Below, one piece after another: positions 1-57,956 of a DNA stretch of 64,000 bases. This DNA is from Fragum whitleyi (Eukaryota > Mollusca > Bivalvia > Cardiida > Cardiidae). Made by a program: the position numbers and the translations under genes. The notes under the pieces were generated by a model, which was not told where the DNA came from, searched no databases, and saw only the letters and a list, made by a program, of their open reading frames with translations. The DNA lies in NCBI GenBank assembly GCA_948146395.1, contig OX411551.1, forward strand, positions 43,496,796 to 43,560,795. The letters are read 5' to 3'. Positions within the stretch are counted from its first letter, which is position 1. Every line of letters starts with the position of its first letter.

Positions 1-830
1 TCAATCAATCAGAAATATTTTCAAAAGGATGCAATTATTGAGATCAAACAATAATTCAGAAGACAATCTGATGAAAACTGCAGACTTTAGATTGTTTACG
101 AAGATTTTCTAATTGAATTCTTCATTTATTTTCAATGGCCCCTTTTCCTGAGATACTAAATGGATCTGACCAATTTTTGAAAGGATTCATGCTTGTGATG
201 GTCCAATCATTCTGACCAAATTTGAAGACAATCTGATGAAAGATGTGGACTTTAGAGCGTTAACGAGCATTCTGATTAAATTTTCAATCATTTTCATTGG
301 GGCCTTTTTTCTAATGACGCTTGACAGATGGGGCCCATTTTCAAAAAGAACCATCCTTGTGATAGAACAATCTTAAGAGAGTTTGAAGTCAATCGGATGA
401 AAAATGTCGACTTTAGAGCATTCAGGAGGAAGCATTTGTTTGAAGTTTCATAATTCTAGGTCACTTGGGGCCCGTCTTACTAAAGATCTTACGATCATTT
501 TTTGCGTAAGTCAAAAATCATAGTTGCTTCTATAGTAGTAACTAAATGTGGAATTCTGCTATGCATAATCTCATTTGAATCGTCTTCTAAAGACGATTCC
601 AATGAGATATTGCAAGACAGAATCTAACAATGAATGGAAACGCAAGGTACGATTTTAGATTTTGACTTACCATTATTCTTTTCGTAAGACTTTTAGTAAA
701 ACGGGCCCTTGGTTCTTAAGTTAGAATCCGGACAGGCAGATGGATGAATGGATGGACAGACAGACATGGTGAAACCAATATACCCCCCTCTAATTCACAG
801 GCGGGGGGGTATAATGAATAAATAAACAAA
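1..830 (+). repeat. Dispersed repeat with GGACAGACAGAC tail, carrying nested foldback (family A)
   Basis: The sequence runs in the style CTGACCAAATTTGAAGACAATCTGATG and ends GGACAGACAGACATGGTG...GGGGGGGTATAA, a tail shared by several repeats here. At 467-713 it is interrupted by a foldback whose ends GGGCCCGT(C/T)TTACTAAA are inverted; a second family-A copy is at 52279-52505. No exon of the gene is seen here. Confidence 0.6.
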
Positions 831-949
831 AAGGTTTATATCTGATCTCAATAAAGGCCTCATGAGCTGGACTTATTTTTCTCTATTCATAGTGTTCCTT
901 TTGGAAAATAGCTTTTTTTTTTTTTAAAAAATTATCATCAAATGCTTAC

Positions 950-1048
950 CATCACCAGGTTGTCTTTTGCCAAGTGTTGGTGTCCATTTACCCAATTGGA
1001 CTGCAGAATATCTAAGTGAATATGAGGATTCTTTTGCAAAATATGTTC
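950..1048 (-). CDS. Exon 19: PARP catalytic Tyr motif (last exon visible)
   Basis: Residues 868-900, starting GTYFAKESSYSLRYS; Tyr870 is the second triad residue (GxYFA). Then LGKWTPTLGKRQPGD. Acceptor ATTTCTCTCCAG, donor GATG|GTAAGC, phase 1 out, so at least one more exon with the final strands and third triad residue (Glu or a hydrophobic residue) is required. None is found at 1-949. Confidence 0.9.
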
Positions 1049-4000
1049 CTGGAGAGAAATAAATAAATAGAGAACATTTTTTTGTTTCAGTGCAAAATCA
1101 GTTTGTATTTCATTGAGAAAATTTCTCTTCCACCAATGGGTTAAAATATCGAAAAGCAGCTGGAGGCTAGGAAAGGATTGTACTGGTAATACTGGTGTGA
1201 GAAATAACAGGAAACCATTATTAGGTACTCCAGCTGCTGCTACATAACTTCAAGGTTGTTGAAAGCATAATAAAACCCCATTCAAAGATATTCATTGAGT
1301 GAACAACATAGTCTCTTTTTTTTCACTAATGAAATGAATGATTTTTTGATCTTACACGCAAAATGAATCTTGTCGTTGAGCTGTCATCCAACCAGATCTA
1401 TACAAGAGTGCCAGTCACAATAAACATCCCAAGAGAAAATTTTCAGCAAAGGCCAGTTTTTCTGTGATGCCACATGATATACCTTAATTGCTACTATATG
1501 GACATGATTATGTGATGATGATCATTTTTTGAGATTTCATGCAAATCTGTCCATAATTAAAGTAGGAGTTATTTCAACAATAATTGGAAGGACAGACAGA
1601 TCATCTGTAGCTTAGTTTACTATGATTGCAAAATGCCACTTCAGGTAGAAAATCAATATGAAAATTGACCTTTTTGTCCTAGTATTATGTAGACAAACAT
1701 TCTGACCTAGTTTCAAGACATTTGAGTCAAAGTTGAGGCCTCTACAGTGGATACAATACCTTTCTAAAATTGACCTTTTGACCTATTTTTTACCCCCTTT
1801 TGGCCCTTTATTGAGCTAGAATGTGATTTGATGAAGACTAAAATTCTGACTGAATTTCAACACATTTTGTTGGCTCAACGCAAAACAGTTGTAACTCCGT
1901 ATAAACATATAGGAAAGTACAACTGTTTCGTGCTGAGCCATCGATTTGAGCCTCTAGAGCACATGCAAGGTTATTAAAAAGATTTGACCCCTCAGCCTCA
2001 TTTTTTACCAGACTTGAGCCAAATCCAAACTCATTCGAGATATCATGTAGACAAACAATCTGACCAAGTTTGAGCCAAAAAAGTGGCACACAAAGTTTTT
2101 CTAAGACTTGACACCTTGATCTGATTGATCTGATTTCGAACTTGACCGAGGTTTCATGGAGAAAACATTTGATAAAAAAATGCACCCTCTACAGTGTTCA
2201 CAAAGTGTTTCAAAGATTAGACCTTTTGACCTTATTTTTGACCCCAATTGACCCATAATAAATCTTGACGGAGATTTGATGGCAACAAATATTCTGACCA
2301 TGTTTCAAGATATTTTATCCAAAAATGTGCCCTTTAGAGCGCACACAAGGTTTTCCTATGATTTGACCCATAGACTTCATTTACCCTACTTGACCCAAAT
2401 TTACCTCGTCCAAAATATCATGCAGACAAACATTCAGACCATGTTAAAAGATATTCCATTTAAATTCCATAATGTGGCCTCTAGAATGCACACCAGGTTT
2501 TCTAAGAGGTGACGCCATTTGACACAATTTCGAATTTGACCTGGATTTGATGAAGACAAGTACTCATACCAACTTTCCATACATTTAAGATGTGTACACA
2601 AGATAATGACACATGACCCACGAAGGATGACAGACAATGAATGACAGACACACATGGATCACAAAAGCTCACCATCAGACCAGGATACAATTAGATGGCA
2701 ATGTAATTACATGTAATTGAATTACAATATTTCATTGAAATATCTCAATCGTAATTGTAATTACAGCAAAATACTAATCTTATTAATCAAATTACAATTA
2801 CTTTGTAAATTTAATTAATTACTTTTCCAATTAATTTTTGGATAAAATGAATCATAATAGAGGAAACGGAAATTGACAAAGGCTGAATTTATATACTGCT
2901 TTATTTTCAATTAAAGACTTTGTAAATCTTGTTTGAAATATTGTTTGAAGACATGCTTGAAAATCGTTATCATCAATATCTTGTTCATATTTGCTTAAAT
3001 ATTCAATATTTGATTTTTGAGACAAAGCCTTCTAAGCATTTTTAGTTAAAATAAACAAGCTTACCCTGACCAAATGCTATTTGATTTTTTTAACAAAGTC
3101 TCCTTCAAAATCCTTTATAAATCAATATGTAAGCACAAAATGAGAAGTATTGTTCATTAACATGCCCTGCCAAAATACTGTTCCAAACTGTACACAAAGT
3201 CTCAAATTGAATCCCTCTTTACCATTGTTTAACTTGTACCTTGCCCAAATACTGTTCCATTCTGTCCACAAAGTCCCTTATCAAATCCCTCTTAACCATT
3301 AACTTACCCTGCCCAAATACTATTCCAATCTGTCCACAAAGTCTCTAATTGAACTTCTTTACACTGTTAACTTACCCTGCCCAAATACTGTTCCATTCTG
3401 TCCACAAAGTCTCCAATCAAATCCCTCCTTACAAATACTATCTATGACATCTATTCTTGTACCATGGAAGAGCCTCTTTTCATTAATATGAAGTTCCCCC
3501 ATATCTTGGATCATGTGATTTTTACACCTGTAGTATAAAATGAAAATTCCAGTAAGTCAACCGCAGAAAGGTCAAAACTACCATCACAATGTAAAAATTG
3601 AGTTAAAATTTAACTCCATGTCATACTGAACCAAGAATATTCCAGCTTTTTCGAAATCTATAAACAAGGATCAGCCTGCACATAATGATAATGTGCAGTC
3701 TGATCTTAGTGTAAATTACCTGAGTTTCCTTTAAAAATCCAAAAACATGAATAATAAATAATTAATAAAATATTTTCAAAATCAATACCCAAGCACAATA
3801 AGTGCAGCAAGTGTTTTCAGCACTTTGATCAAAACGCAGTTTTACCAGGATTTTTATTCAGCTTGCCAAGGATTTAAGCAAAAACAGTGGTCTCTTAATA
3901 CCCACAAGATTCTTCTAGGATTCAAATTGAGCCTGTGTGTTACATTTCCAACAATTTGAAATCTTCATGACAGGTAAATATTAGGTAGCGAAGACAGCAG

Positions 4001-7000
4001 ACAAACTGTATATAAAAAATTACCTGATAGTCTGAAGATACTTTGAGACCTTTTCTTTCTACTTAGTGCATAGTGAAGACTCAGGTCAGACTGTTCGGCT
4101 GCACAGGCTGGCCAAAAGCTTTGCTTTGCGCACATGTGAAATTTTTGGAAATGTCACACACCGGCACAATTATTTATCTCCTTTAAAAGTTTTTGACCCC
4201 AATGACAAACTCAAAATATACTTCGATGTCAGCATAGGTTTTCTTAGATTTGAGCTAAGTACATAGATTCAGATAAGTTTTCAGGTTGATTGAGACTGAA
4301 ATTAAAAAAAAATCTACGCAATGCATCTAAAATCTTACACCTAAAGGGATACTCGACCACTAATAATTGACAAAAGAGGGCCAGTACTGTTTCACTGGCA
4401 CTAAATGCCAAGCAGGTTAATGAAAATTCAACATTTAAATGCATTCAACTTTTAAGCTAATGCTGATTATCATCAAAGGTTATTTTATTGAAAGGATATG
4501 TAATGATTGTCATTCTGTGAAAGATTAGTGTAGACATGCCCATTATTTAGGGGGAGTTGCAAAAAGAAAAAGGATTTTCACGTCATGAAGGAACTCTTCC
4601 ATTGACACAGCATCATATGCTATGCTATTAACACTTTCCTGTTTTGCAAAATTTTGGACCTGTCCAAATTCAAAGGTTTTGCAGACGAAAATTTAAAATG
4701 GATTTAATTTGAAAAATAGCCATTCAGTAGGGTAGAAAATAGTGTGGAAAAAGAAGAAATTGCTTGTCAGAAGCAAATTCTTCTTTTTTCACAATGTTTT
4801 CTCAATTATAAAATCACAGGCACGTAAAAAGCAGGTATTAAACAGCAAATGGTTAAAGAGTAGAAAAATTCATTCATAAATACAGGAGTTGTGTTAACAA
4901 GAAGTTGAGCATGATGCTCCATTTTCCAAGAACACATCATCATATAGCTATAGGAAACAGTCACAAAATGCACAAAATACACAAAGGCTCTGGAGAGACA
5001 ATTTTCAATTCTCACAACCGAGTTAGATATTTTTTCATACAATACACATGTATTATATTTATCTTATAACCTCTATTTGTCTTCTTTTTGTCAATGTTTC
5101 TAACTAAAATGTAAGTTTCTAAAAATAACCACATTATATCATTGTTCTAAAATAACTATGTGATATCATAAAAAATATGATACGTGATGGTATAACACAG
5201 AGTTTTGTATTGTTATAAGATAAATATTGATTTGTCTTATAGTCACAACTTTGTCTCCCTCACCTTAAGCAGGACCTCGAGACAAAAGTCCAAAAATAGA
5301 AATAACTCTTACAAAATGCTTACAGAGTTATCCCTCTTGATAGCCTCGGTAGCTCTTGTGATGGTGAACACACATGCCAAGTTTTGTGACAATATCTTTA
5401 ATAACAACAGAGACATGACCAAGGTTAAAGTTTGTCACGCTAATGCCAATACTTACATAACGACAGCAAGGTGATCACAAGAGCACCGCCTACCGGCGCC
5501 TACACTCGGCTGTCGAGTGCTGGATGGTGGGAAAAAATCTAAGTCAAAGAAGGGGCATAATTTGCACAAAATGCATCTAGAGTTATACCCCTTGATAGTA
5601 TAGGTTGGTCTTTTGATGGTGAACATGTGTGCCAAGTTTCAAGTGTATGCCTTCAGTAGAATCAGAGATATAACAAAATGTCAAAGTTTTCGCACCACAA
5701 CGACAACGACATGAAGGCTATAGCAATACCTCAGGTTTTCTCCGAAAACAGCCGAGCTAATAATACCTTGGGTTTTCTCTGAAAATAGCCGAGCCAACAA
5801 AACTATAGGTTCTACTCACAAGCTGTATTTCTCCCACAATCTCTGGTTTTGTATTCTGTAAACTTTTTTCACAGATAAGGCCTCACATTTAATAGATTTT
5901 CTGAACAGTGCAGCTATGTCTAAATATTCTACACTGATTGGGTCGAGATCAGCCACTGAAAATCCCTGAAAATAAATAAATTTAACCTGATTTGTTTGTG
6001 TGAATGGGGTTTAACAAATAGGATAATCGTTTGTTTCAGTGTAAGATCGATTTATATTCCTTGAGTGAACAATAAAAGCTATATTTTCACGAGTGGAGGA
6101 GCCATGAGTGAAAATATAACTTTTGGTGTCCACGAAATAAAATATTTATCGATCTTATCCAAAAACAAACAATTATTCTATTCCTTTATTGCAAAAATGA
6201 GATAAAATGTGAAATATAGGACATATTTTCGAAAAACAAGTCATTTTGCACGTGATTGCTATGCAACTTTAATTGTGACATAATTTATTTGGCCCCGCAT
6301 AGATGATGTCAGATAGTATGAAAAGCGCAAAAGCAGGGTATAAGTTTTTGATATTTTCACTGCATTTGCAGTGAGATTATCAAGTGATAATCTACTGTTG
6401 TTTCTCGATAAACCACAGTAAAGCATTAAAGAATGCTTTTTATTAATCTTTCAGTTACATCACTGAAAATCCCTGAAAATAGATCAATTTGACTTTATTT
6501 TTTTATATGTTTGAATGGGGTTTTACATTGTTTTTGTTAGTCTTCAGTTATATTGTGGTGGTTGGAGCACCTAACCATGGGTTCCTGATATTTCTCACAC
6601 CAGTACTACCACAATATCCCTGTGCATCCAGCTGCTCATCCAACATAGGTCTACCATTATCGACCAATTAGAGGAAGACAAATGTCCTAAAGGTATTCGG
6701 AACATCACTCGGCCATTTCCGTAAACTACAACATACCTCGGATGTATGTAAGGCAGATGGGTATGTAACAAAATCGTGCATTTTGTTAGGCGGAAACATG
6801 GTAAGAAAAACTAGCACTGTAGATTTATATTTTTGCAGTATATAACGGCTGAAAAATCTTAATTTTTGAGAATGACGAATCATTCTCAAAAATTAAGATT
6901 TTTTCAGCCGTTATTTAAGAATCTAAAGATATTAATATAAGGATTTGATGAATTCAAGTCAGTGACTTAAACGAGTAGCGTTGGCGACGTTGAACGTTTT

Positions 7001-46000: not shown

Positions 46001-49000
46001 ATTTGTCTTGAGGATGAGACACAAGCCCATTGTACCAATTGAAACAACAATCCTGATTGGCTGAAATTAATTGCCAGTTAAATTTAACCAATGATTATAA
46101 TTTATTCAACCAGGGCCTGTTGGGTATATCCATTTCTATAAAGCTTTCAATTAGATTATCAAGATTTCTTACAAGATTATCACTTGATAATTCTATCATA
46201 AATTGGCCTTACACTAAAACAAAACTATCATTCTCTATCTTTACATAAAGGATAGTTGCTTGCTTCTGGATGAAATGAAAGTCTGAACTAGAAACCCATG
46301 AATGGCTTGAGTCGCTCCACAGGCTTGAAATTCTTGTAAAAGCAAATAAATTTTTTGACTAGATTTTTAGACATTTGGGGTTCTACTGATGTTGAAAATG
46401 ATTTTCTATGTTTCAACTATATAACAGATAGAGAAATGACCTCTGCTCTTAAAAGACATATTTTTCATCAAATCAAATTAATTTTTGGCTGCATGATAAT
46501 GGGTCACCCAAAGATCATACCAGAAATGTTTGATTGATATCCATCAGTTACATTCTGAGAAAATGATTTTCATAGTTTCGACTATTTAACATATTGAGAA
46601 ATGACCTTCACCCATAAAATGCATATTTTTCATCCAATCAAAATAAGTGAAATTTGGTTCATATCCCAAAATTAGATTCCGAGAAAATGATTTGAAAATT
46701 TTCCACTATTTAACATATTGAGAAATGACCTCTGCCCATAAAATGCATATTTTTCATCTGATTACAATGATTTTTTGTAGACTGATAAGGGGTCACTCAA
46801 GGATCATTCCAGTGAAATTTGTTTGATATCCAACAATTAGATTCTGAGAAAATGATTTTCAAAGTTTCCACTATATAGTATATAGAAAAATGACCTCCGC
46901 CCATAAAATACAGAATTTTTATCTGATCACAATAATTTTTGGTAGACTGATAAAGGGTCACTCAAGGATTGTTCCAGTGAAATTTGGTTGATATCCATCA
47001 CTTACATTCTTAGAAAATGATTTTCAAAGTTTCCACTATATAACATTTAGAGAAATGACCTCCACCCATAAAATGAATATTTTCAACTAATCACAATAAT
47101 TATTTGTAGACTGATAAAGGGTCACCCAAGGATCATTCATGTAAAATTAAATTGGTATCCATCAATTAGAATCTGAGAAAACTCACTTTTTACCATATTT
47201 GGAAATAAGCCACGCCCATTAAATCCATGTTTTTCATTGGATAAAAAATTCTTCAACAACTTTGAAAGAGGGTCACCCAAGGATCATTCCTGTGAAGTTT
47301 GGTTTAAATCCATCCAGTAGTTTCTGAGGAGAAGATTTTTAAAGAAAAGTTTACGACCGGACGCACACACACACGGACGTACTGACACACAACGGACCCA
47401 ACGCCATGACAATAGCCCCAGTGGCTTTCAGCCAGTGAAGCTAAAAATGAAATAACCCCATTGAATATTTTTGATAATACATGGGTGTTATCATACTAGT
47501 GGAAAAACTATGCAAATGAGCTCAGAGCAAATAGCAGTGCTATTTTGTAACCACGAAAATGAAGTCAAAAATGTATATAATGTGACGTCAGTTTTAAACG
47601 GTGCTATCAGTTTCAGGGAAAATCAGAATGTTGAATTTCAATAATTTTGACAATTTTTCGCAAAAATTCGTTTGCATTATAAATAGAATATAAAATTTGT
47701 GATCATGAAATACAGAATTTATTTAACTCGTCATCTAAAACCAATAAAAACTCGGCACAGTCTCGTTTTTATCTGTCTATAGGTGCCTCCTTTAATAAAA
47801 TCTGTATATAGATGCCTCGTTTAATAAATTTGGTATTCCATGACCACTCATTCAATATTCTCTATATCTACAATGTGTACTGACCTCACTTTTCCAAGAC
47901 CTTCTCTCTGTATCATCAGAATCATCATCCTGTGACTGATCATGTTCCATAGCATCATCATCATCATCAACATTATTATCATCTATACAATCGTCACTAT
48001 CATCATTATAGTCGAGTTCTACAATACCAGCATTAGCACCATCCATTTCATCATCATCAACATAGGGATCCAGCCTTTCAGATTTAAATGTATCTACTTT
48101 ACCACCATCAGACACTGTTTGGTTATCCAGACTAGATTCCTTATCTATATTAGGGCTGTCTGTTGTTAGATCAATTAGTCCAGACTTTTCAATGTCACAA
48201 CCTTCACCAGTTTCATCAGCACCAATACCCGAGTCATCTACAAAAAGAAATCTTCAATTAATTATTTATCAATATCATTATCAAAACAATTTTCATTATG
48301 ATTATCACAGTTGACTCGCACTGTATCAGGATTAGCACCATCCTTATTATCCTCATCAACATAGGGATCCAGCCTTTCGGATTTTGCTGTATCTGCTTTA
48401 CCAACATCAGACACTGTTTGGTTATCCAGACTAGATTCCTTATCTATATTAGGGCTGTCTGTTGTTAGATCAATTAGTCCAGACTTTTCAATGTCACAAC
48501 CTTCACCAGTTTTATCAGCACCAATACTTGAGTCATCTACAAAAAGAAATCTTCAATTAATCAAAATCATTATCAAAACAATTTTCATTATGATCATCAC
48601 AGTTGACTTGCACCATATCAGGATTAGCAGCGTCCTTATTACCCTCAACAACATAAGAACCCAATATTTCAGATTTTGCTCTATCTACCTAACCAGCATC
48701 AGACACTGTTTGGTTATCTAGACAAGATTCTTCATCTATAGTAGGGCTGTCTGTTGTTAGATCAACAAGTGATCGTTTGTAAAACATTTATGCCTCCATA
48801 ACAGCAGGTCAATAGCCTATTCTTTGTAAATCAACAAAGGGCAATAACTCACAAATATGATGAGAAGAGTTATGGTTCTTGTGCACTGCACTTCTCCTCA
48901 ATGAGATCTATCCACCAGTGAAGCTTCATAATTCTAGCTTTCATACTTTCTGACATATGCTCAAACCGGTCTATGGACCGACAGACAGACCAACCGACTG

Positions 49001-52000
49001 ACCAACAAGTGCAAAGCAATATACCCCCTCTTCTTCTAAGGGGGGCATAATTCGTCCAGACTTATCATTGTAACTTCTATCACCAGTGTTTTCAGTAACA
49101 ACTCCTCAGTCATCTACAAATAACAAATATTCAATTAATGTCAGTCATCATCCTGGTCACAGAATCAATCTGTATCAATTACATACATGATGAAAAACAT
49201 ACATACATGATGCTTAATCAGCACACAAATCACCAAATTGAGAAACTTCAGACACTATGTGGTTATCTAAACTATGTAATTCTTTATTTACAATGGGACT
49301 TTCTGTTGTTAGATCAATCGCACCACCAGTTTTATCAGCATTAATACCTGAGCTGAGTCATCTATCATCTTAAAATGTTCATGTACTTCCATTAATGTCA
49401 AACAGAGGAAAAAAATCAAGTTGTATAATTTGCTTGATTATTGAAAATGCTTGAAAATATCTAATAAAAAACACAAAGAAAATAGATTTAAGAAGTAGTT
49501 AATAAGCTGAAAATTGAAGCTCTTTGATTTTAACATAAAAACTCCTATGGGAGAACCTTGTAAAGGATAGAACATTGATTTATGAGGGGAAAATTGCACT
49601 TTTAAGGAGTAATGTACCAAGATGGTAAGGGGCCTGAGACATTAGGCCCCATTTTCTTAGTGAAAGAAAACCCTTGGATCAAAATTCAATCTCTACAGAT
49701 TTATTCAATTGTCTGGGGAAGACAAATTCCAAAGGGTATCCTCAAAATAGTGATTGGGAGAAAAATGCTATTACATTCGATATTGCATGAGCAACCACGT
49801 CTATTAAGCAACCATTTTTGTTAAGCAACCACCATAAAAAGTCCCTTCTCGGTAAGCAAAATCTGTGAAAAGGAGGTCTTCTTAACGAAAATTGGTCATT
49901 TTCGAATCTTATGCTGATGGAGCCCATTAGAATCGCCTCAATAAGACATTTCTAATGGGTTCAAACATCATAAGATTCAGAACAACTTGACCGACAATCT
50001 TTCAATGCCATCAAAATGAACTGTCACATTTATCGTGATAGTTTGTATTAACCAACCGTTCCCATAAACAACTGTTTTTCATTGGTTCCTTAAGTGGTCT
50101 CTTAACACAAGTTTTAACTGTATCTTTGAGACCCTTCTCTCTTATCTAAATCTGTACTTACTTATTTCTATAAATTCCATGTCCATTTCCGGCGTGCCTT
50201 TTCTGTCTTTCCACTTGATGTCATAATCATCATCTATCTCAACATACTCAGGAAGATCTGTCAAAATAAAAATGAACCCTTCTATAATGTTTGTCAGTGG
50301 TATATCGATAAATAATTGTAGGTTATCACTTGATAAACTCACCGCTTAACCAGTCAAATTATCAAATCTTAAACCCCGCTTTCGTTAAATTCACCATATA
50401 TGATGTAATATAAGCCGAGCACAATATTTGACTTGACATCATCATGAACGTTGCATAGCAATCACATACAAAATGAAACTCTGTAAGAAAATTTGTCCTA
50501 AAAATTTTCACATTTTCTCTCATTTTTACATTATAGAATTGAATACTTATTTGTTTTTCAAGAAAGATTTATTGATATTTCATTTCTTGGACAAGAAAAC
50601 CTATATTTTTAAGAGTGAAACATCCTTAAAAGGGGACAAACAGGTGGTATAGACTAAGATGTCTATAACTCCTTTCAAAGCAGGAATATTCCAGATAAGG
50701 GTTAAAACGAAGTCTTAAGCAGAGAAGAATCAGTCATAACAAAAGCTGTCGGAGGACATGAAGCTCAACTATTCTTAGCGCTTGATAGAAACAGCAAATC
50801 AATGTCCACATTCCAAAATTTCATTGAATGAAATCAGTGATATATCTTTGTCTAAAGGATGATATAATGGTCATACAAGCGTGTGCAGTTTCCAAGCAAA
50901 AGCTTTTGTAGAAACAGTGGTTTTACACTGTTTGACGTAAAACCTTAACCAAAACATTATGCCAACATACGGTGAGCAGAAGAGCCCCCCTATTCTACAA
51001 AAAGTCTAACTGAAAAGAGAAAATAATGATATAAAGGGTCTAGTTGGGAGAGGGCACCTCTTTTCTTTAGTCATTTCACATATTGATGGCTCTTTGCAAA
51101 ACAGTTGTATAGTGGAAGCATTTTGACCTGAAACTGGCCTCTGAGATTTAAATAAATTAAATATCAGTCGCTTCCCTTCGGCAAAACATGACTTATCTGC
51201 AGAACTCAATCGTGAAGTTGGAGTGCACGTGTTCACTCTGTTAACCCGTTATCGCCCATACTTTTTACTGTAACGTTGACGTTTAGGCACCCTCATTACC
51301 AAGTGAATCATCACATAATTTGAGTCTCCTACTTAACAATCTTAAGATGCGTGTGAAAAAAAACCCACCAAATGTTCAAATTTCTTATAAATTCAATTAA
51401 TCTTATTTTCTGGAAATGAAATCCCATCTCAGCAGGAAATTGTTTTTGAAATTGAATAGTCTGCTCCATGACTTTGTGCCTGTATATCAGTGGACTTTTA
51501 AGTCCACGAATACCTATAATTTGTATAATATAACGGATTGTCCATGCTTGATCGTCATGTGCTGAAGTATCTTTGGAATTGTATTCATAAGCATAATTAT
51601 TTATTCTGCATAAAGGTTAGGCTCAAGTTAATATGCGCTCGCTATAACTCCCTATAAACATATAGGGAGTTACAACTGTTTTGCGCTGAGTCATCAATAT
51701 TTCTCAAAAAAATCCCCATGTATTGGCTACCCATTTGAGTCTGGAAAAGATTACTGAAATGAGTACCCACAGCACAGGCTTTAGAGCCATTCATTTTAAA
51801 TATATCCCTTTCGTATCTGTATTATTCTGTATCTCTAGAAATTTACCATCTTCATTGGTATCCTTGGGCTCAATTTTAACCGGTGAAAATCGTTTCTGCA
51901 GAGGTTTAACGATCACATCTGCAACAATCGCTGACTTCTCCGAGCTCCCGCTTGAACTGATTATTTGGACCTCAACACCTTCATATGCCAACCTCTCCTC

Positions 52001-52078
52001 TAGGCCAGGGTCACAAAGGTCAAGGTCATGGTCCCCTTGATCATCCATGGCTACGGTCAATTTGGTAAGTTGGTCCAT
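950..52078 (-). CDS. SUMO-motif / SMC5-type hinge / RING1-IBR / PARP fusion protein, 19 exons, 3' end outside window
   Basis: Seen: 19 minus-strand exons with good AG acceptors and GT donors whose phases chain without error (0/1/1/0/0/1/0/2/0/2/0/0/1/1/2/0/0/2/1), giving 900 codons. Domains: VKIE sumoylation-type site (67-70) and SIM-like motifs (about 37-40, 130-133, 181-184); coiled coil (275-330); SMC5-type hinge (about 330-510); coiled coil (510-565); RING1 (605-654); IBR (696-737); PARP catalytic domain (from 754, His838, Tyr870). Family knowledge: the SMC5 hinge dimerises with SMC6; RNF216-type RBR proteins are E3 ubiquitin ligases; PARPs transfer ADP-ribose from NAD+. Inference: a nuclear, chromatin- or SUMO-directed ADP-ribosyltransferase with RBR-derived zinc modules. 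SMC ATPase heads and RING2 are absent. The last PARP strands, including the third triad residue, lie left of the window. Exon 16 carries both the IBR end and the PARP start, which argues against two adjacent genes. Confidence 0.85.
1140..1275 (+). repeat. SINE2-like fragment
   Basis: Carries the body CAGCTGGAGGCTAGGAAAGG and the tail TTGTTGAAAG...TAAAACCCCATTCAAA shared with copies at 6430, 12120, 13220, 14930 and 30768. Confidence 0.55.
1640..2850. repeat. Degenerate tandem-cored repeat and AT-rich microsatellite
   Basis: Repeats of 'CTGACCATGTTTCAAGATATTT' style units of about 130 bp run from 1640 to 2690, with one palindrome K copy at 1872-1939. An AT-rich TGTAATTACA/AATTAC simple repeat follows at 2698-2850. 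Nothing coding seen. Confidence 0.5.
3155..3345 (-). repeat. Three extra copies of the exon 18 3' edge and donor
   Basis: Units of about 64-70 bp repeat GACTTTGTGGACAGA...TTTGGGCAGG with a downstream GT: GGGTAAGTTAA (copy 2), AAGGTACAAG (copy 3) and a broken one (copy 4). Extending exon 18 to copy 2 would meet a TAA at once, so only the first donor is productive. Confidence 0.75.
3376..3527 (-). CDS. Exon 18: PARP catalytic His motif
   Basis: Residues 817-867. NEKRLFHGTRIDVIDSICKE places the NAD-binding catalytic His at 838; GFDWRLCGQNGTVFGQ is the usual GFD.R..G.NGT.FG block. Acceptor TATACTACAG, donor GGGCAGG|GTAAGT; phase 2 in, 1 out. Three further degenerate copies of the last 60 nt plus donor follow (3155-3345). 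Confidence 0.9.
4628..4856 (+). mobile_element. TTAA-flanked MITE (family P)
   Basis: About 229 bp bounded by TTAA, with inverted ends resembling CCCTTTCCTGTTT. Two better copies are at 32411 and 45014. A TTAA target is typical of piggyBac-type transposases. Confidence 0.6.
5268..5800 (+). repeat. Family I repeat, two parts
   Basis: Contains CAAGAGCACCGCCTACCGGCGCCTAC, then the ACGACAACGAC microsatellite and GGTTTTCTCCGAAAACAGCCGAGC tail; a close copy is at 32025-32336, a partial one at 10080-10290. It ends about 20 bp from the donor of exon 17. Confidence 0.6.
5820..5965 (-). CDS. Exon 17: PARP catalytic domain, N-terminal part
   Basis: Residues 769-816. VEYLDIAALF (PARP: EY..V...F) and KKVYRIQNQRLWEKYS (PARP: I.RIQN..LWE.Y), the most characteristic pre-catalytic signature of the family. 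Acceptor TTTATTTTCAG|GGA, donor AGCTT|GTGAGT; phase 0 in, 2 out. Confidence 0.9.
6030..6430. mobile_element. Foldback MITE, family B
   Basis: GTTTCAGTGTAAGATCGATTT...GATCTTATCC(A)AAAACAAAC and TTATCAAGTGATAATC hallmarks. Related copies at 7548-7910, 10625-11015 and, reversed, 50280-50620. Confidence 0.55.
6430..7205 (-). mobile_element. SINE2 copy split by a Mutator-like foldback (family C, 6694-7137)
   Basis: SINE2 sequence (AACCATGGGTTCCTGATATTT body; tRNA-like head on the minus strand) is resumed after 7137. The insert has inverted ends ATTCGGAACA and a central perfect palindrome (arms about 33 bp, 6844-6915). About 20 bp of the SINE (AGACAA(A/T)TGTCCTAAAGG) is duplicated at the two sides. 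Confidence 0.65.
7548..7910. mobile_element. Foldback MITE, family B
   Basis: Same landmarks as the copy at 6030 (GAAAGATCATTTTATCTTTCATTGAGT, GATCTTACTC, TTATCAAATGATAATC), more diverged. Confidence 0.5.
7924..7950 (-). CDS. Possible 27-nt microexon between exons 16 and 17
   Basis: Would add LATKLRFSE in phase 0/0 (acceptor GAAATAG, donor GCGAG|GTAATT). The pyrimidine tract is poor. Without it, exon 16 joins exon 17 perfectly and the spacing from HW to the VEYLDI motif fits PARPs better. I did not include it in the 900-codon model. Confidence 0.2.
8015..8260 (+). mobile_element. TTAA-flanked MITE, family D
   Basis: Begins TTAACCCTTGTCATGCTGAA and ends CAAGGGTTAA; the intact sister is at 36842-37087. 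Same TTAA target as family P but a different inside. Confidence 0.7.
8365..8572 (+). mobile_element. tRNA-derived SINE (SINE1)
   Basis: The head TGGTCTAGAGGTAGAGTG (A-box-like) and GGTTCGATTCCCGGGAGC (B box) is tRNA-like, followed by a conserved body and GGTTTAAACC. A 5'-truncated copy is at 15900-16078. Not a functional tRNA: no acceptor pairing or CCA-end stem. Confidence 0.75.
8690..10075 (+). repeat. Family G element with 8 tandem units of about 156 bp
   Basis: Units start near CTGCACTCCCCCTT and contain ATACTCCGGACAAGATTC and AAACAACAAAGGGCAATAAC. The end is a single-copy tail GGACGCCGGACG...GGGCGTATAAAA. The 156-bp period is a multiple of three, which keeps a frame open for 166 codons without implying a protein. 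Diverged relatives at 21150-22440, 27789-28515 and 48770-49050. Confidence 0.7.
10080..10620 (+). repeat. Family I fragment and (CAGA)n-tailed repeat
   Basis: 10080-10290 resembles family I. 10295-10620 ends in CAGACAGACAGACAGA and GGCAGAGGTATAA; this tail type recurs at 11455, 22090 and 31690. Confidence 0.5.
10625..11015. mobile_element. Foldback MITE, family B (best copy)
   Basis: Contains an inner palindrome around AAAGCTATATTTTCGAGTGAAAAATATAGCTTTT, TGACGTCA-like sites and the TTATCAAGTGATAATC end. It ends about 50 bp from the exon 16 donor. Confidence 0.6.
11066..11212 (-). CDS. Exon 16: IBR end fused to start of PARP catalytic domain
   Basis: Residues 720-768. TFCRLCETEWHLKKHDLC completes the IBR (C722, C725, H730/H734, C737). 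After about 16 residues comes IPAHWEIDTEKEKDM; IPAHW/LP.HW is the usual first motif of PARP10/14-type catalytic domains. Acceptor TTCCTTGTAG|ACT, donor GATATG|GTAAGG; phase 0/0. A later AG (TTTTTGTAG) would break the frame. Where RNF216 would continue to RING2 this protein goes directly to the ART fold. Confidence 0.85.
11290..11545 (+). repeat. Dispersed repeat with G-rich tail
   Basis: TTTGAACTTGACAGATGACATTGACCTTGTCACAT style, ending in GGACGGACAACAG and a G-tract (11520-11543). Similar text at 21780-22195. Confidence 0.5.
12120..12385 (-). mobile_element. SINE2 copy with tRNA-like head
   Basis: Minus-strand reading begins with a tRNA-like head including GGTTTGATCCCCGACAGC and ends AAGCGGTGTTTAACTCCATTCAATCAA. 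Partial copies at 13220-13400 and 14930-15165. Confidence 0.65.
12474..12815 (+). mobile_element. TACAGT-ended MITE, family E
   Basis: Runs from TACAGTAAAACTTGTGTTAAGCGACCAC to GCAATATTGACTGTA, with TA at both ends (Tc1/mariner-like target, inferred). Copies at 41155-41465 (reversed), 41493-41831 and 49787-50121 (reversed). Lies directly downstream of exon 15. Confidence 0.6.
12831..12903 (-). CDS. Exon 15: first half of IBR zinc module
   Basis: Residues 695-719: CPGCGYSGVLEADIKNFKC and NKCHK, with C696, C699, C714 and C717 as zinc ligands. RNF216 has the similar CP.C.FPALL..D...F.C at this place. Acceptor CTATTATACAG, donor CATAAG|GTAGTA; phase 2 in, 0 out. A family-E MITE ends about 15 bp past the donor. 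An 80-bp duplicate of the acceptor side lies at 12975-13060. Confidence 0.85.
13220..13400 (-). mobile_element. SINE2 partial copy
   Basis: Shares CCTAGCCTCCAGCTGCTATC and GGAGCCCCTAATGATAGACTCC with the copy at 12120; the tRNA-like head is missing. Confidence 0.55.
14029..14131 (-). CDS. Exon 14: RING1-IBR linker helix
   Basis: Residues 661-694, starting SELRKSLPSIVMDLLEES. RNF216 has a like SELEK.LP helical linker directly after RING1. Acceptor AAATTTTACAG, donor GTCAA|GTAAGT; phase 1 in, 2 out. A 26-bp sequence repeated three times lies just past the donor (13930-14012). Confidence 0.8.
14600..15165. repeat. CAGGG-type element remnant (14600-14910) and SINE2 (14930-15165, minus)
   Basis: The first part carries the ACTTGTCCCTGGACAAGTAG palindromic motif of the element at 33865. 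The second is a SINE2 copy with GGGGATCAAACCC in its head. Confidence 0.55.
15349..15576 (-). CDS. Exon 13: Thr/Pro linker and RING1 of RNF216 type
   Basis: Residues 585-660. TTTPATVTPLKEPPPP precedes C605-EA-C608, C620-CDG-H624, C627-TS-C630, C649-SVPS-C654, a full RING1 ligand set. The layout (C-x-x-H-x-x-C-x-x-C, then K...GxxxxxC....C) resembles RNF216/TRIAD3 RING1. Acceptor TCAACTCCACAG, donor CTCAAA|GTAAGT; phase 1/1. Family role: RING1 binds the E2. Confidence 0.85.
15900..16078 (+). mobile_element. tRNA-derived SINE1, 5'-truncated
   Basis: Starts inside the B box (GAGTTTGATTCCCGGGAGC) and shares the whole body and GGTTTAAACC tail with 8365-8572. Confidence 0.7.
16100..18055. other. 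Intron stretch, mostly unremarkable
   Basis: A small palindrome around AAAGTGTCTTAGGACACTTTG (16141-16162), a CAGGGGTGTGGAATTCCC element (16799-17095, right end lost), and otherwise AT-rich sequence. No exon found. Confidence 0.5.
18064..18715. mobile_element. CAGGG-TIR element (hAT-like MITE)
   Basis: Ends CAGGGTCCAAAGAAT / ATTCTTTGGACCCTG are perfect 15-bp inverted repeats, flanked by a direct repeat TTTAAGC on both sides (18057-18063, 18716-18722). Internal subterminal GGACGAGTGG repeats. CAGGG ends suggest hAT, although the duplication is 7 rather than 8 bp. Confidence 0.75.
19305..20730 (+). repeat. Family F element with tandem core
   Basis: Starts AAAGCCATGAATGGCTTGAG, has about 7 diverged units of 160-190 bp (GAGAAAATGATTTTCAAAGTTTCCAC...AAGGGTCACTCAAGGATCATTC), then a GCACGCACGGACGGACG run, ending CAGTGGCTTTCAGCCAGTGGAGC. 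Copies at 26756, 46290, 39040 and 52510. Confidence 0.7.
20879..20936 (-). CDS. Exon 12: linker
   Basis: A 58-nt exon, residues 566-584: EESLVPPINSRLPKVTDVP. Acceptor CTGTGTTTCAG, donor CCTG|GTAAGT; phase 0 in, 1 out. No domain recognised; joins a Thr/Pro-rich linker in exon 13. Confidence 0.75.
21150..22440 (+). repeat. Family G relative with nested repeat
   Basis: Units of GCACTTCTCCTCCATGAGATCTATCCACCC; a nested (GGACGGAC)n-tailed repeat with two near-identical 130-bp blocks sits at 21735-22195. Confidence 0.6.
22441..23236. other. Intron stretch without recognised feature
   Basis: AT-rich sequence of dispersed-repeat style (CCCTTTTACCTGTGAAACTTGACAG). No splice-bounded coding segment seen. 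Confidence 0.4.
23247..23691. mobile_element. Mutator-like foldback, family C, with 10-bp target duplication
   Basis: Ends CATTCGGAACATCACTCGGCCA / TGGCCGAGTGG...CCGAATG are inverted; AATTTGAGGG is directly repeated on both sides (23237-23246, 23692-23701). Central palindrome with about 33-bp arms at 23396-23468. Ten-bp duplications and long inverted ends suggest a Mutator-type origin. Confidence 0.75.
23700..25335. other. Intron stretch with degenerate repeats
   Basis: Contains GAGGCCCAAATATGACCC-type repeat text (24300-24900) and a tRNA-like fragment (24690-24765). No exon seen. Confidence 0.4.
25341..25442 (-). CDS. Exon 11: coiled coil
   Basis: Residues 532-565, 34 residues with heptad-like Leu/Ile spacing (KKTELESECELINRRSQELA). 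Acceptor TTATGTTTCAG, donor AAAAG|GTACCA; phase 0/0. The coiled coil ends here, far shorter than the hundreds of residues in a true SMC arm. Confidence 0.8.
26381..26447 (-). CDS. Exon 10: return coiled coil
   Basis: Residues 509-531: KEPTLLIKSVDEQRKQELKQ and LK. The VDEQRKQEL pattern is like the start of the second SMC5 coiled coil. Acceptor TTTTTGCAG, donor CTGAAG|GTAAGT; phase 2 in, 0 out. Confidence 0.8.
26756..27787 (+). repeat. Family F element
   Basis: Same start (AAAGCCATGAATGGCTTGAG) and end (GGCTTTCAGCCAGTGGAGC) as 19305-20730, with fewer core units. Confidence 0.7.
27789..29100 (+). repeat. Family G relative, then CTCAAAT-type repeat with GGACGGACAGAC tail
   Basis: 27789-28515 has four to five units like 21150. 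28515-29100 ends GGGGAGCATAA after a (GGAC)n run. Confidence 0.55.
29695..30110 (+). mobile_element. MITE, family H
   Basis: GAGTGGTCGTGAAATACCGAATTTATT...GTGGGGTTATTTCGCTCC. A reversed copy lies at 47450-47860 and a fragment at 30590-30690. Confidence 0.6.
30490..30548 (-). CDS. Exon 9: end of hinge
   Basis: A 59-nt exon, residues 490-508: YQMKKSNYSGLPSTICARL. SMC5 has the similar YVVK.S.YS...S at this point. Acceptor GTTTATTACAG, donor TTGAA|GTAAGT; phase 0 in, 2 out. Too short to be found by ORF length; identified from splice sites and the SMC5 alignment from memory. Confidence 0.8.
30768..30925 (+). mobile_element. SINE2 copy
   Basis: AATAGCAGCTCGAGGCTAGG to AAGCAGCATAAAACCCTATTCAAACAAAC; head missing. 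Confidence 0.6.
31000..31260 (+). mobile_element. Family D MITE, decayed
   Basis: Follows family D text (CCTGAAATATTACTGCTTTGGCA, GTGCAGTCTGATCTTAGT, TTCAGCATGACACTAGTTAA). Confidence 0.5.
31430..31815 (+). repeat. Dispersed repeat with GGACGGATGG tail
   Basis: TTCTGACCATAGTTCATGAC units, then a GGACAGACGGATGG run (31690-31775) and a GGTGGGGAGTATAA end, 15 bp from the exon 8 donor. Confidence 0.55.
31830..32013 (-). CDS. Exon 8: SMC5-type hinge, C-terminal part
   Basis: Residues 428-489. DYGFQCYLQDKIKCPEPIM, then FLCNRYGIHNYPIG, follow the order of the SMC5 hinge (YGFFSYL, D.PVM.YLC..Y.IH.VP.G). Ends CFFTPEYR. Acceptor CATTTCAG|TGATTA, donor AGG|GTATGA. A family-I repeat starts about 12 bp upstream of the acceptor and supplies part of its pyrimidine tract. 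Confidence 0.85.
32025..32336 (+). repeat. Family I repeat abutting exon 8
   Basis: CAAGAGCACCGCCTACGGGTGC to CTCCGAAAACAGGCGAGC with a GACGACGAAGACGACGATGACG microsatellite inside. Inserted about 12 bp upstream of the exon 8 acceptor. Confidence 0.65.
32411..32640 (+). mobile_element. TTAA-flanked MITE, family P (intact)
   Basis: TTAACCCTTTCCTGTTTTAC ... TTAAACAGCAAAGGGTTAA; 230 bp, with an internal hairpin GAAATTGCTTGTCAGAAGCAATTTC. Confidence 0.7.
33865..34232. mobile_element. CAGGG-TIR element (hAT-like MITE)
   Basis: CAGGGTTGTGGAA / TTTCCACAGCCCTG inverted ends with a direct repeat GTTAAGT on both sides (33858-33864, 34233-34239). Many copies of CTTGTCC/GGACAAG inside. Truncated relatives at 14600, 16799 and 26610. 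Confidence 0.7.
34481..34689 (-). CDS. Exon 7: SMC5-type hinge, central part
   Basis: Residues 359-427, beginning VNVKDQFYARCLESLVSSND. SMC5 proteins have a like-placed TINMKD...ENHI.SNDL pattern, then an F-rich stretch; here MTKFFFEKHED follows. Ends with FRRPITDY, like the SMC5 RP(I/L)..L..YGF block. Acceptor TTTTCTATAG, donor TATAG|GTCAGT; phase 0 in, 2 out. Confidence 0.85.
34745..35830. repeat. Repeat bounded by TATACGCCC / GGGCGTATA, then family E fragment
   Basis: Starts AACAAGAGCTTCCC...TATACGCCCAATGG and ends GACCCTTCGGGCGTATAAAA at 35731. Inside are three units of about 190 bp (GGGCAGATAAT.. AAGA). A family-E piece follows. No coding segment. Confidence 0.5.
35853..36296. mobile_element. 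CAGGCCTCCTAG-TIR element (family J)
   Basis: Ends CAGGCCTCCTAG / CTAGGAGGCCTG are perfectly inverted and CGTAAG is repeated on both sides. The interior is rich in AAATAAAGG and AAAGGTTT repeats. Confidence 0.65.
36521..36592. repeat. 72-bp near-perfect palindrome (family K)
   Basis: ATATTGAGGGTTCGGTGCAA and its complement flank a GTATATAC centre, with arms of about 34 bp. Diverged relatives at 1872-1939, 32969-33036, 38655-38732 and 51642-51694. Confidence 0.75.
36842..37087 (+). mobile_element. TTAA-flanked MITE, family D (intact)
   Basis: TTAACCCTTGTCATGCTGAA ... TTCAGCATGACAAGGGTTAA, 20-bp perfect inverted ends including the TTAA target; 246 bp. Confidence 0.8.
37200..38290 (+). repeat. 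Dispersed repeat with internal A26 tract
   Basis: CAAGAGGACCATGATGGTCC start and GATGAGCTAAAAA end; tandem units CCAAATATGACCCCAGGGTC of about 170 bp. A poly-A run sits at 37541-37565. Confidence 0.5.
38448..38560 (-). pseudogene. Decayed duplicate of exon 6 (copy B)
   Basis: Encodes NEAVIWLWGSKLLFTGTTYE and keeps the TTTGT|GTAAGTATC donor. A weak internal AG (ACTACAG|AAAGG) would even be phase-compatible, but the upstream pyrimidine tract is missing. Probably a non-used duplicate; an in-frame alternative exon cannot be excluded. Confidence 0.55.
38574..38640 (-). pseudogene. Decayed duplicate of the exon 6 3' end (copy A)
   Basis: Encodes a TTYEP-like stretch and keeps the GTAAGTATC donor, but has a G-tract insertion and no acceptor. 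Probably non-functional. Confidence 0.55.
38795..38952 (-). CDS. Exon 6: coiled coil into SMC5-type hinge
   Basis: Residues 306-358. Acceptor ATTCATTTCAG, donor TTTGT|GTAAGT, phase 1 in, 0 out. The motif DSYEAVIWLRGSKGLF followed by YEPIALCV corresponds to the start of the SMC5 hinge, where vertebrate SMC5 has a closely similar EAVLWLR...EPI pattern. Two shorter decayed copies of this exon lie 150-500 bp downstream. Confidence 0.85.
39040..40965 (+). repeat. Family F copy with nested 1.1-kb repeat
   Basis: Family F text runs to 39510 and resumes at 40592. Between lie two other repeats, one of them (39721-40590) with four units of about 190 bp (GGTTCAGGAGGAGATGTCATTC) and a GCTCGCTGGCCTTCGGCCAGTGGAGC end. 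Confidence 0.6.
41155..41831. mobile_element. Two family E MITEs in opposite orientation
   Basis: 41155-41465 starts TATAGTCAATATTGCTCAAGCG (reversed); 41493-41831 starts TACAGCAAAACTTGTGTTAAGC and ends AGCAATATGGACTGTA. They lie head to head just left of the exon-5 minisatellite. Confidence 0.6.
41866..43455. repeat. About 27-copy minisatellite of 57/60 bp, each unit with a 5' splice site
   Basis: Near-identical units differ by one GGA triplet (57 or 60 bp, both multiples of three). On the minus strand every unit reads KSI(S/A)GK-E-GDSLHVQIDNLS, and most carry (T/G)CAG|GTAAGGAG, a near-perfect splice donor. Units of a second type change CATGTAAAC to CATATTAAC, creating TAA in the coding frame. 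Only the first two units after exon 5 stay open; the rest is intronic. The array is expected to vary in copy number. Confidence 0.9.
43402..43519 (-). CDS. Exon 5: coiled-coil entry, followed by the donor-bearing minisatellite
   Basis: Residues 267-305. MTDIEQQIDKLNKEGDGLHV is heptad-like. The acceptor is a NAGNAG type (TTTACAGCAG), so one Gln is optional. The donor TTTCAG|GTAAGG lies inside the first unit of a tandem repeat; the donor 57 nt further on (43345) is also in frame and would add 19 residues. Use of the third or later donors would include a stop codon. Phase 0 in, 1 out; joins exon 6 as GCA. Confidence 0.8.
43520..45010. other. Intron 4 repeats
   Basis: 43560-43640 is a family-I scrap. 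A candidate element with inverted ends TTAGGGATG / CATCCCTAA spans about 44196-44874, containing CGGATCACTG and poly-A stretches. No exon seen. Confidence 0.4.
45014..45242 (-). mobile_element. TTAA-flanked MITE, family P (reversed)
   Basis: TTAACCCTTTGCTGTTTAAT ... AAAACAGGAAAGGGTTAA, the reverse complement of the copies at 4628 and 32411. Confidence 0.7.
45750..45866 (-). CDS. Exon 4: basic linker
   Basis: Residues 228-266, starting RKKFKQHLHPYSGQ and ending KSSIKEKKIK; strongly Lys/Arg-rich, possibly a nuclear-localisation or DNA-contact segment. Phase 0 in (TTTATCAAG|AGA) and 0 out (AAAG|GTAGTG). No domain is recognised. The acceptor has only a moderate pyrimidine tract. Confidence 0.7.
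45905..45985 (+). mobile_element. tRNA-like SINE head
   Basis: AAGCTCAGTCGGTGGAGC (A box) and GGGTTTGATTCCCCAGG (B box) with tRNA-like spacing but a 16-nt insertion and poor stems. More likely a SINE head than a tRNA gene. It lies 40 bp from the exon 4 acceptor. Confidence 0.5.
46290..47445 (+). repeat. Family F element
   Basis: Begins AAACCCATGAATGGCTTGAG and ends GTGGCTTTCAGCCAGTGAAGC after a short CGCACACACACACGGACG run. Confidence 0.65.
47450..47860 (-). mobile_element. MITE, family H (reversed)
   Basis: Reverse complement of 29695-30110 (AATAACCCCATTGAATATTTTTG ... GACCACTCATTCAATAT). It ends 25 bp from the exon 3 donor. Confidence 0.6.
47885..48237 (-). CDS. Exon 3: Asp/Ser-rich segment with SUMO-interacting motifs
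   Basis: Residues 110-227 (phase 1 in, 0 out; acceptor TTCTTTTTGTAG, donor GAG|GTCAGT). Contains LIDLTTDSP (130-138), a textbook SIM resembling those of RNF4-type ligases, and IVELD (181-185), a second candidate. An acidic run of Asp with few Ser follows (about 187-220). An alternative donor 6 nt upstream (AAAA|GTGAGG) would break the frame into exon 4. Three partial copies of this exon lie just upstream (48.3-49.4 kb). Confidence 0.8.
48327..48536 (-). pseudogene. Decayed duplicate of exon 3, copy 2
   Basis: The nearest upstream copy is about 90% like exon 3 over its first 70 codons, with the same acceptor (TTTTTGTAG) and the LIDLTTDSP motif. It lacks exon 3's acidic tail and donor. If its acceptor were used, translation would run into the intron and stop within about 15 codons. 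It is therefore probably silent, or an alternative terminal exon. Confidence 0.7.
48600..49118 (-). pseudogene. Decayed duplicate of exon 3, copy 3, split by a repeat insertion
   Basis: Homology to exon 3 is found at 49052-49118 and at 48600-48767. The two parts are separated by about 280 bp of family-G repeat ending in a purine-rich GGGGGGCATAA tail. An in-frame TAG replaces a Lys codon near 48691. This copy cannot be a functional exon. Confidence 0.65.
49249..49372 (-). pseudogene. Decayed duplicate of exon 3, copy 4 (fragment)
   Basis: A 120-bp fragment still recognisable by the GATCTAACAACAG and CAAATA-type stretches shared with exon 3, with several substitutions and a small insertion at its acceptor side. 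It is the outermost and most decayed of the exon-3 copies. Confidence 0.5.
49787..50121 (-). mobile_element. Family E MITE (reversed)
   Basis: GAGCAACCACGTCTATTAAGC ... AACACAAGTTTTAACTGTA, ending about 40 bp from the exon 2 donor. Confidence 0.55.
50162..50257 (-). CDS. Exon 2: acidic linker
   Basis: Residues 78-109, starting DLPEYVEIDDDYDIKWKD. Acceptor TTTATTTTGACAG|ATC, donor ATAA|GTAAGT, phase 1 in and phase 1 out. The VEIDDDYD stretch is a hydrophobic-acidic patch that could be a weak SUMO-interacting motif. The GTPEMDMEF part is not recognised. Confidence 0.8.
50280..50620 (-). mobile_element. Family B MITE (reversed)
   Basis: GGTTATCACTTGATAAACTC ... TTTCTTGGACAAGAAAACC; ends just upstream of the exon 2 acceptor. 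Confidence 0.5.
51847..52078 (-). CDS. Exon 1: start codon and acidic N-terminus with SUMO motifs
   Basis: Residues 1-77, beginning MDQLTKLTVAMDDQ. The ATG at 52078 has A at -3 and G at +4. An in-frame TAA lies 21 nt upstream, so coding cannot extend further 5'. The segment contains VQII followed by SSSGSSE (residues 37-46, SIM-like) and SPVKIEP (67-70 fits the sumoylation consensus). It ends in phase 1 at GATG|GTAAAT. The exon itself probably begins at 52145, after the acceptor CTTTTCTTACAG, giving 67 nt of 5' UTR here; an upstream non-coding exon is therefore expected. Confidence 0.85.
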
Positions 52079-55500: not shown

Positions 55501-55590
55501 AGGAGAAGATTTTTAAAGAAAAAGTTTACGACCAGACACACGCACGCACGACAGACACAATGCCATGACGATAGCCCCAGTGGCTTTCAG
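52510..55590 (+). repeat. Family F element split by a CACTA-like transposon
   Basis: Family F units run 52510-53233 and 55220-55590 with continuous alignment across the insertion. The right end is cut inside GGCTTTCAGCC, directly next to the LINE relic. Confidence 0.7.
53234..55219. mobile_element. CACTA-like (EnSpm) non-autonomous DNA transposon, 1986 bp
   Basis: Inverted ends of 30 bp (CACTCATTCTCACGAGAATT..., one mismatch) starting with CACT, and a 3-bp duplication ATA (53231-53233, 55220-55222) are as in CACTA elements. Subterminal repeats GTAAT(A/C)TTCGATAC occur at least seven times. No transposase reading frame is seen, so it needs a helper. Insertion into family F shows it is younger. 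Confidence 0.75.
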
Positions 55591-55596
55591 CCAAAA

Positions 55597-55985: not shown

Positions 55986-55989
55986 CCGT

Positions 55990-56235: not shown

Positions 56236-56279
56236 AATGGTCTGGATTGTGCTGTAGGTATGTGATTAGCCTCAGATTA

Positions 56280-57938: not shown

Positions 57939-57956
57939 CGTGATTAAAGCCCTTTT

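Follow-up and report, generated by a model that had tools for sequence, protein, structure and literature searches.

The window analyzed here (64,000 nucleotides of Fragum whitleyi, C9:43496796-43560795) carries on its minus strand a fusion gene that runs from position 52078 down to position 950 and continues beyond the window's left edge (Table 1). Within the window, joining 17 exons at AG acceptors and GT donors gives one frame, which leads from the ATG at 52078 to the donor after 950 and comprises 829 codons free of stops. The initial annotation had set the same end points, with no strand named, and had also reported no internal stops, but its 19 exons and 900-codon frame are revised here to 17 exons and 829 codons in the window, with the copies of exon 2 counted once and one further exon placed outside. 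This terminal exon 18, which is in phase with exon 17, lies 8.4 kb outside the left edge and brings the full product to 1324 residues from 18 exons; a search of window positions 1-949 for a continuation exon found weak acceptors and short frames only. The domains claimed in that annotation (an SMC5-type hinge, RNF216-type RBR modules, and a PARP10/14-like domain) were found in minus-strand open frames of the region and, by eye, in none of 239 plus-strand open frames of at least 38 residues. An Rfam scan of the window gave no match.

Table 1. Exons of the fusion gene (window positions, except exon 18; "SMC5 exon" refers to the SMC5 gene of the same genome; P0001, P0002, and P0009 are bivalve relatives named in the text)
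Exon	Position	Strand	Content and basis
1	51847..52078	-	Start codon; N-terminal motif DHDLDLCDPGLE; SIM-like VQIISSSGSSE (by eye)
2	47885..48237	-	Acidic stretch; SIM-like GLIDLTTDS (by eye); open, phase fits both neighbors
3	43402..43519	-	Pre-hinge coil, SMC5-derived; second in-frame donor at 43345
4	38795..38952	-	Coil and hinge start; 158 bases against 155 in the SMC5 exon, same phases
5	34481..34689	-	Hinge; length (209) and phase as in the SMC5 exon
6	31830..32013	-	Hinge; length (184) and phase as in the SMC5 exon; 52% identity to the C6 gene
7	30490..30548	-	Hinge Loop C with S424 and Y426 (latch that contacts SMC6); length (59) and phase as in the SMC5 exon
8	26381..26447	-	Post-hinge coil; length (67) and phase as in the SMC5 exon
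9	25341..25442	-	Post-hinge coil; length (102) and phase as in the SMC5 exon
10	20879..20936	-	Linker; splice signals and phase only
11	15349..15576	-	RING1; RNF216 match; four relatives align
12	14029..14131	-	RING1-IBR helix; RNF216 match
13	12831..12903	-	IBR; RNF216 match
14	11066..11212	-	IBR end and PARP start in one exon; P0001, P0002, and P0009 align over it
15	5820..5965	-	PARP; PARP12 match
16	3376..3527	-	PARP, LFHGT with H767; P0001 70% identical
17	950..1048	-	PARP, Y810; low-complexity insert begins; PARP12 match
18	C9:43488401-43486915	-	Remainder of insert, PARP end, stop; outside the window

Exon model and neighboring repeats

Codon scores singled out exons 2, 3, 8, 9, 12, and 14, with exon 2 scoring above all 848 of 848 null stretches, and for 11 of the 17 exons more than 60 of 1000 null stretches scored at or above the exon. 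Among the splice signals, the exon 4 acceptor (27th percentile), the exon 9 donor (10th), and the exon 13 donor (8th) were weak, and the exon 10 donor was within the best 1% of GTs. For exon 10 itself, no homology was found and the codon score was not above the null; exon 9 could also be joined in frame to an alternative acceptor at 15622. At exon 3, an acceptor at 43516 was considered and rejected in favor of 43519, as the inner AG is missing in a tandem paralog (see below) and the exon is then equal in length to its SMC5 counterpart. Exons 3 and 10 both end in phase 1; exons 4-10 thus make up a phase 1-1 cassette whose insertion or removal leaves the reading frame intact.

Exon 2, the SIM exon, occurs in several tandem copies at about 49350-47885, and the last of these (48237-47885) was chosen as the sole copy open to a donor at its far end. 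Partial tandem copies near exons 2 (49350-47885), 4 (38640-38426), and 16 (3375-3160) include the exon end and donor region; together with exon 3, four exons of the fusion gene show nearby tandem copying. At exon 3, a 60-bp tandem array (window 41865-43455) begins inside the exon and holds 26 GGTAAG donor-like sites in one phase relative to it, with the frame open over the first two donors (43402 and 43345) and a stop at 43291. The paralog carries the same kind of array, and each unit could change the coil length by 19 or 20 residues. Repeats of a 165-bp tandem family are found in introns and just upstream of the gene (window 19412-20441, 26861-27501, 46646-47181, and 52536-53233). Farther along, window 55590-57956 contains minus-strand open frames that by eye resemble a LINE-type retroelement, including a cysteine-rich PHD-like frame (57956-57264) and an endonuclease-like frame (56088-55807); a Pfam scan of three of these LINE-like frames at E<=0.01 returned no match.

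RING1-IBR and PARP modules

Compared with PDB, exons 10-17 gave 55 matches, with PARP12 first (6e-25), RNF216 at 4.4e-18, and further matches to PARP15, PARP14, PARP10, tankyrases, the CCCH antiviral protein ZAP, ARIH2, and RNF31. The RING1-IBR part alone gave five matches, two to RNF216 (best E=1.3e-18) and three to ARIH2 (3e-5), and the RNF216 alignment runs from RING1 to the end of the IBR, which Pfam also detected in the joined protein (3e-6). Past the IBR, there was no significant match to a RING2 with its catalytic cysteine; instead, exon 14 passes from the last IBR ligands (CRLC...HDLC) to SISIPAHW, the start of the PARP domain. Since the IBR end and the PARP start lie in this one exon, RING1-IBR and PARP belong to one product that has no space for RING2. 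The RNF216-type RBR assignment of the initial annotation thus holds for RING1 and IBR but not for RING2, and the exon that it described as shared between IBR and PARP (its exon 16) is recovered here as exon 14 (11212-11066).

RNF216 (TRIAD3), an RBR ubiquitin ligase, shares RING1, the connecting helix, and the IBR with the fusion protein, and differs in carrying RING2 with the catalytic cysteine where the fusion protein carries PARP. The SIM-like acidic N-terminus is presumably a further likeness between the two. According to the available text of one report, RING1 of RNF216 binds E2, RING1-IBR binds allosteric ubiquitin, the catalytic cysteine is Cys688, and Tyr519 matters for E2-Ub discharge (PMC9834252). 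The residue that we take as the equivalent of Tyr519 is Gly in the fusion protein, which makes E2 binding doubtful.

Pfam detected PARP in the joined window protein (4e-21) and in exon 16 alone (E=3.1e-08). The presence of a PARP catalytic domain is thereby corroborated, although only half of it lies within the window and its closest solved relative is PARP12, ahead of PARP15, PARP14, and PARP10, rather than the PARP10/14 type named before. The other half is encoded by exon 18, and this terminal part gave 13 PDB matches, again with PARP12 first (8.9e-9). In PARPs, an H-Y-I triad by the usual rule denotes mono-ADP-ribosylation. Alignment to PARP12 places the triad at H767, Y810, and I1299 and thus predicts mono-ADP-ribosylation for the fusion protein. 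PARP12 is a human antiviral mono-ADP-ribosyltransferase; its catalytic domain shares Ile at the third triad place with the fusion protein, in which the CCCH fingers and WWE of PARP12 were not found (Pfam scan of the window part) and the catalytic domain is split by a roughly 400-residue insert enriched in S, N, G, and T.

An SMC5-derived hinge

When exons 3-9 (299 residues) were compared with PDB by phmmer (E<=0.01), both of the two matches were SMC5: 9lwi at E=1.2e-33, with a best stretch of query residues 32-299 (268 residues) that included both coil stubs, and the SMC5 hinge 5mg8 at E=0.00028. Exon 5 alone also ranked SMC5 first (E=0.0051). The SMC5-type hinge of the initial annotation is therefore upheld, whereas the profile search proposed as its check succeeded in part: Pfam recognized PARP and IBR in the joined protein and gave no match to SMC_hinge even at E<=1, so that a Pfam test alone would miss a hinge that is clear against SMC5 itself.

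A search of the source genome (1.2246 Gb, 38 contigs) with the hinge (260 residues, exons 4-9) returned 11 matches in two places only, seven at the fusion locus (one of them an extra exon-4-like copy) and four at C6:43.080-43.090 Mb. The C6 locus also carries a Walker A exon and other SMC5 head pieces, which identifies it as the true SMC5 gene (about 43.06-43.11 Mb). Seven consecutive exons of this gene, within C6:43091004-43079337, have lengths of 118, 155, 209, 184, 59, 67, and 102 bases, against 118, 158, 209, 184, 59, 67, and 102 for exons 3-9 of the fusion gene; entry phases are equal at all seven and lengths at six of the seven. The two genes are identical at 155 of 298 residues over these exons (52%), and despite this 48% divergence the seven exons contain no stop or frameshift. 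Such an exon-for-exon match in phase and length indicates that the hinge arose by duplication of genomic DNA with its introns, that is, by exon capture; a retrocopy and a chance likeness are both ruled out by the same correspondence. A tblastn search of the window with full SMC5 (P0008, E<=1) found hinge and coil pieces only and no ATPase heads. The fusion protein thus shares with SMC5 the hinge and coil stubs, the latch Ser and Tyr, and the exon phases and lengths, and departs from it in having no heads and a hinge fused to other domains. Apart from SMC proteins, hardly any proteins are known to carry an SMC hinge, the exceptions being a few relatives (e.g., SMCHD1 and plant DMS3).

Sites common to human SMC5 and the SMC5 of this genome were kept more often than others in the fusion protein (63 of 100 versus 78 of 166; Fisher p=0.012), a modest rise. 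Among the aligned residues, S424 and Y426 correspond to human SMC5 Ser624 and Tyr626. Alt et al. 2017 describe Loop C of SMC5 as the latch by which SMC6 is held; in their account, strong conservation marks fission yeast Tyr612 (human Tyr626), which is required for stable pairing with SMC6, and fission yeast Arg609 and Arg615 matter for ssDNA binding (PMC5290277). The fusion hinge has Lys at the place of Arg609 and Leu at that of Arg615.

Tandem paralog and relatives in other bivalves

A paralog lies on the same strand at C9:43634608-43690051, its start about 141 kb upstream of that of the fusion gene, and is collinear with it over exons 1-3 and 11-18. Identity is 88% for exon 1, 75% for exon 2, 88% for exon 3, 94% over 67 residues for exon 11, 34 of 34 residues for exon 12, 88% for exon 14, 92% for exon 15, and 88% for exon 17; exons 13 and 16 were also found, and the terminal exon aligns in pieces of 57, 84, and 89%. 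GT-AG sites are kept at the joints compared, a set that excludes the acceptors of exons 2 and 18. Over nine exons, dN/dS between the two genes is 0.27 (0.40 for exons 1-3, 0.16 for exons 11-14, and 0.26 for exons 15-16). Exons 4-10 are unmatched in the paralog, where hits had E-values of 0.9 to 4.6 and the genome-wide hinge search returned nothing. Because the SMC5-derived exon 3 is present, the paralog probably lost the hinge after the duplication. Window 37.2-38.3 kb and the middle interval of the paralog have non-exonic DNA in common, which may represent a repeat or the remains of an intron. After ALPNNLF, about 1.5 kb of sequence, either intron or insertion, interrupts the terminal exon of the paralog.

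In a set of 5.8 billion proteins, a first search returned 7 of 5368 scored candidates and a second 28 of 7986, the second scoring only those that shared most words with the query. Four of the returned proteins were RING1-IBR-PARP members: Ruditapes LOC132758164 (P0001, partial) and Mercenaria LOC128550319 (P0002) in both searches, P0003 in the first, and Dreissena LOC127834188 (P0009) in the second. The others (4 in the first search, 25 in the second) were PARPs with no IBR in their domain lists. Like the fusion protein, the four relatives combine a D-x-LDL N-terminal motif with RING1-IBR, no RING2, and PARP; the motif reads DEDLDLTDTKL in Ruditapes and Mercenaria, DDYLDLTDTSL in Dreissena, and DDYLDLCEEQ in P0003. 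In exon 1, DHDLDLCDPGLE was the best match to this motif among the window's 2138 open frames (27.5, next 20.8), and 4 of 20000 shuffles of exon 1 reached its score, for a motif that was picked after the sequences had been seen. P0002, P0003, and P0009 share the insert as well; in these three as in the fusion protein, it interrupts PARP between the Tyr loop and the MF-x-RVLVG strand, and in Mercenaria P0002 it holds many FG repeats of nucleoporin type (by eye). The AlphaFold2 model of P0002 has a mean pLDDT of 31.9.

The hinge residues aligned significantly with none of the four relatives, and SMC5 was absent among the PDB matches listed for P0002, P0003, and P0009 (in one case the best 60 of 65). 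In the slot of the hinge, P0003 has an fn3 domain. A protein search with the hinge only, in which 933 candidates were scored, returned one protein, a plain SMC5 (P0008). The search method reaches only proteins that share exact words, and both times it failed to return most SMC5 proteins; relatives with a hinge may therefore have escaped it.

The fusion is real, and the family motif in exon 1, the collinear paralog, and the phase 1-1 cassette together indicate one gene, in agreement with the single product argued for initially; the relatives likewise join the N-terminal motif and RING1-IBR-PARP in one protein.

Proposed function and alternative readings

On balance, we lean toward reading the locus as one 18-exon gene of a bivalve RING1-IBR-PARP family that has captured seven SMC5 exons and encodes a mono-ADP-ribosyltransferase adaptor directed to SUMO and SMC6. 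The captured exons (coil, hinge, latch, and coil) sit between the acidic, SIM-bearing N-terminus and RING1, and the hinge is presumably included in the mRNA. From the domain content, we infer binding to SUMO, SMC6, and ubiquitin, as well as catalysis and a biological role, in the following way. The SIM-like motifs may direct the protein to nuclear bodies or to chromatin rich in SUMO, where the hinge, with its SMC5-specific latch Ser and Tyr, could pair with the SMC6 hinge or hold ssDNA as in SMC5. With the ATPase heads absent, the protein would be unable to act as an SMC motor and might serve as an adaptor or SMC5 mimic. RING1-IBR might bind ubiquitin or an E2; RING2 is gone, which makes the RBR thioester impossible, and the PARP12-like domain in its place would add single ADP-ribose units to SMC5/6 subunits, DNA-bound proteins, or ubiquitin. 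SUMO reading, E2 contact, and a defence or repair role, all put forward in the initial annotation, are conjectural. Several observations count against our reading: neither the paralog nor any of the four relatives shows a hinge, which the family can thus dispense with; the exon 4 acceptor and the exon 9 and 13 donors are weak; exon 10 has splice signals and phase as its basis, with the acceptor at 15622 as an alternative; most exons do not stand out by codon score; the SIM-like motifs were identified by eye; and Gly stands at the presumed place of Tyr519 and Leu at that of fission yeast Arg615.

A possibility to which we give a smaller, though appreciable, weight is that the cassette is optional, with SIM-coil-RING1-IBR-PARP as the main product and exons 4-10 included in some transcripts to yield a switchable SMC6-docking isoform. 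The phase 1-1 arrangement of exons 4-10, the unmatched stretch between exons 3 and 11 of the paralog, and the weak exon 4 acceptor and exon 9 donor fit this picture; against it, the frames of exons 4-9 are still open and six of the seven SMC5 exon lengths are preserved. It is very improbable that the SMC5 exons are a fossil, a dead insert within an intron that is always skipped. The paralog does keep intact frames without exons 4-9, and exons 2, 4, and 16 have decayed copies in their vicinity, but a dead insert is hard to reconcile with seven exons free of stops and frameshifts at 48% divergence, with their kept lengths and more frequently kept SMC5-conserved sites, and with an AG and a GT at each joint in phases that fit both neighbors. 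Scarcely credible is a division into two genes, a SIM-hinge protein from exons 1-10 and a RING1-IBR-PARP protein from exons 11-18: read-through of the exon 10 donor would give GK and then a stop, and the exon 10-11 joint has no homology behind it, yet the paralog runs collinearly through exons 1-3 and 11-18 without exons 4-10, the relatives unite both halves in one protein, and the exon 10 donor is among the strongest GTs.

We tentatively suggest, at less than even confidence, that the protein is an SMC5 mimic. Hinge and latch would let a ubiquitin-linked mono-ADP-ribosyltransferase dimerize with SMC6, displacing or joining SMC5, and at sites rich in SUMO, ADP-ribose would be written on SMC5/6 or its DNA complexes (e.g., viral or plasmid DNA). 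The cassette is removable and was apparently lost in the paralog, and would be a switchable docking arm.

Relation to known systems and significance

Each module of the fusion protein is known, and as far as the literature was searched, what is new is their combination, a PARP12-like enzyme with appended modules. In the DTX3L/PARP9 complex, a ubiquitin ligase part and a PARP part act together, but these are two proteins with a different ligase type, whereas the fusion joins its modules in one protein. An analogy, not a relative, is SIMC1 (PMC9708086), whose SIMs are coupled to a part that docks on SMC5/6, a combination able to guide SMC5/6 to viral replication centres; SIMC1 docks by an Nse5-like domain rather than a hinge, and the abstract of that report names no PARP or RING. 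Our literature search, with most subscription papers outside its reach, found no account of the fusion, of PARP in the place of RING2, or of hinge capture exon for exon, and the word IBR is absent from the available text of PMC2964712.

In this genome, an enzyme gene has received the hinge in the form of seven intact exons, and since the donor gene, the host gene, and a hinge-unmatched tandem paralog are all present, the individual steps of the capture can be traced. The bivalve family itself, in which PARP takes the place of the catalytic RING2 of an RBR ligase, is undescribed as far as we searched. If the hinge binds SMC6, the fusion protein would provide a direct link between ADP-ribosylation and SMC5/6, both of which are tied to DNA repair and antiviral defence.
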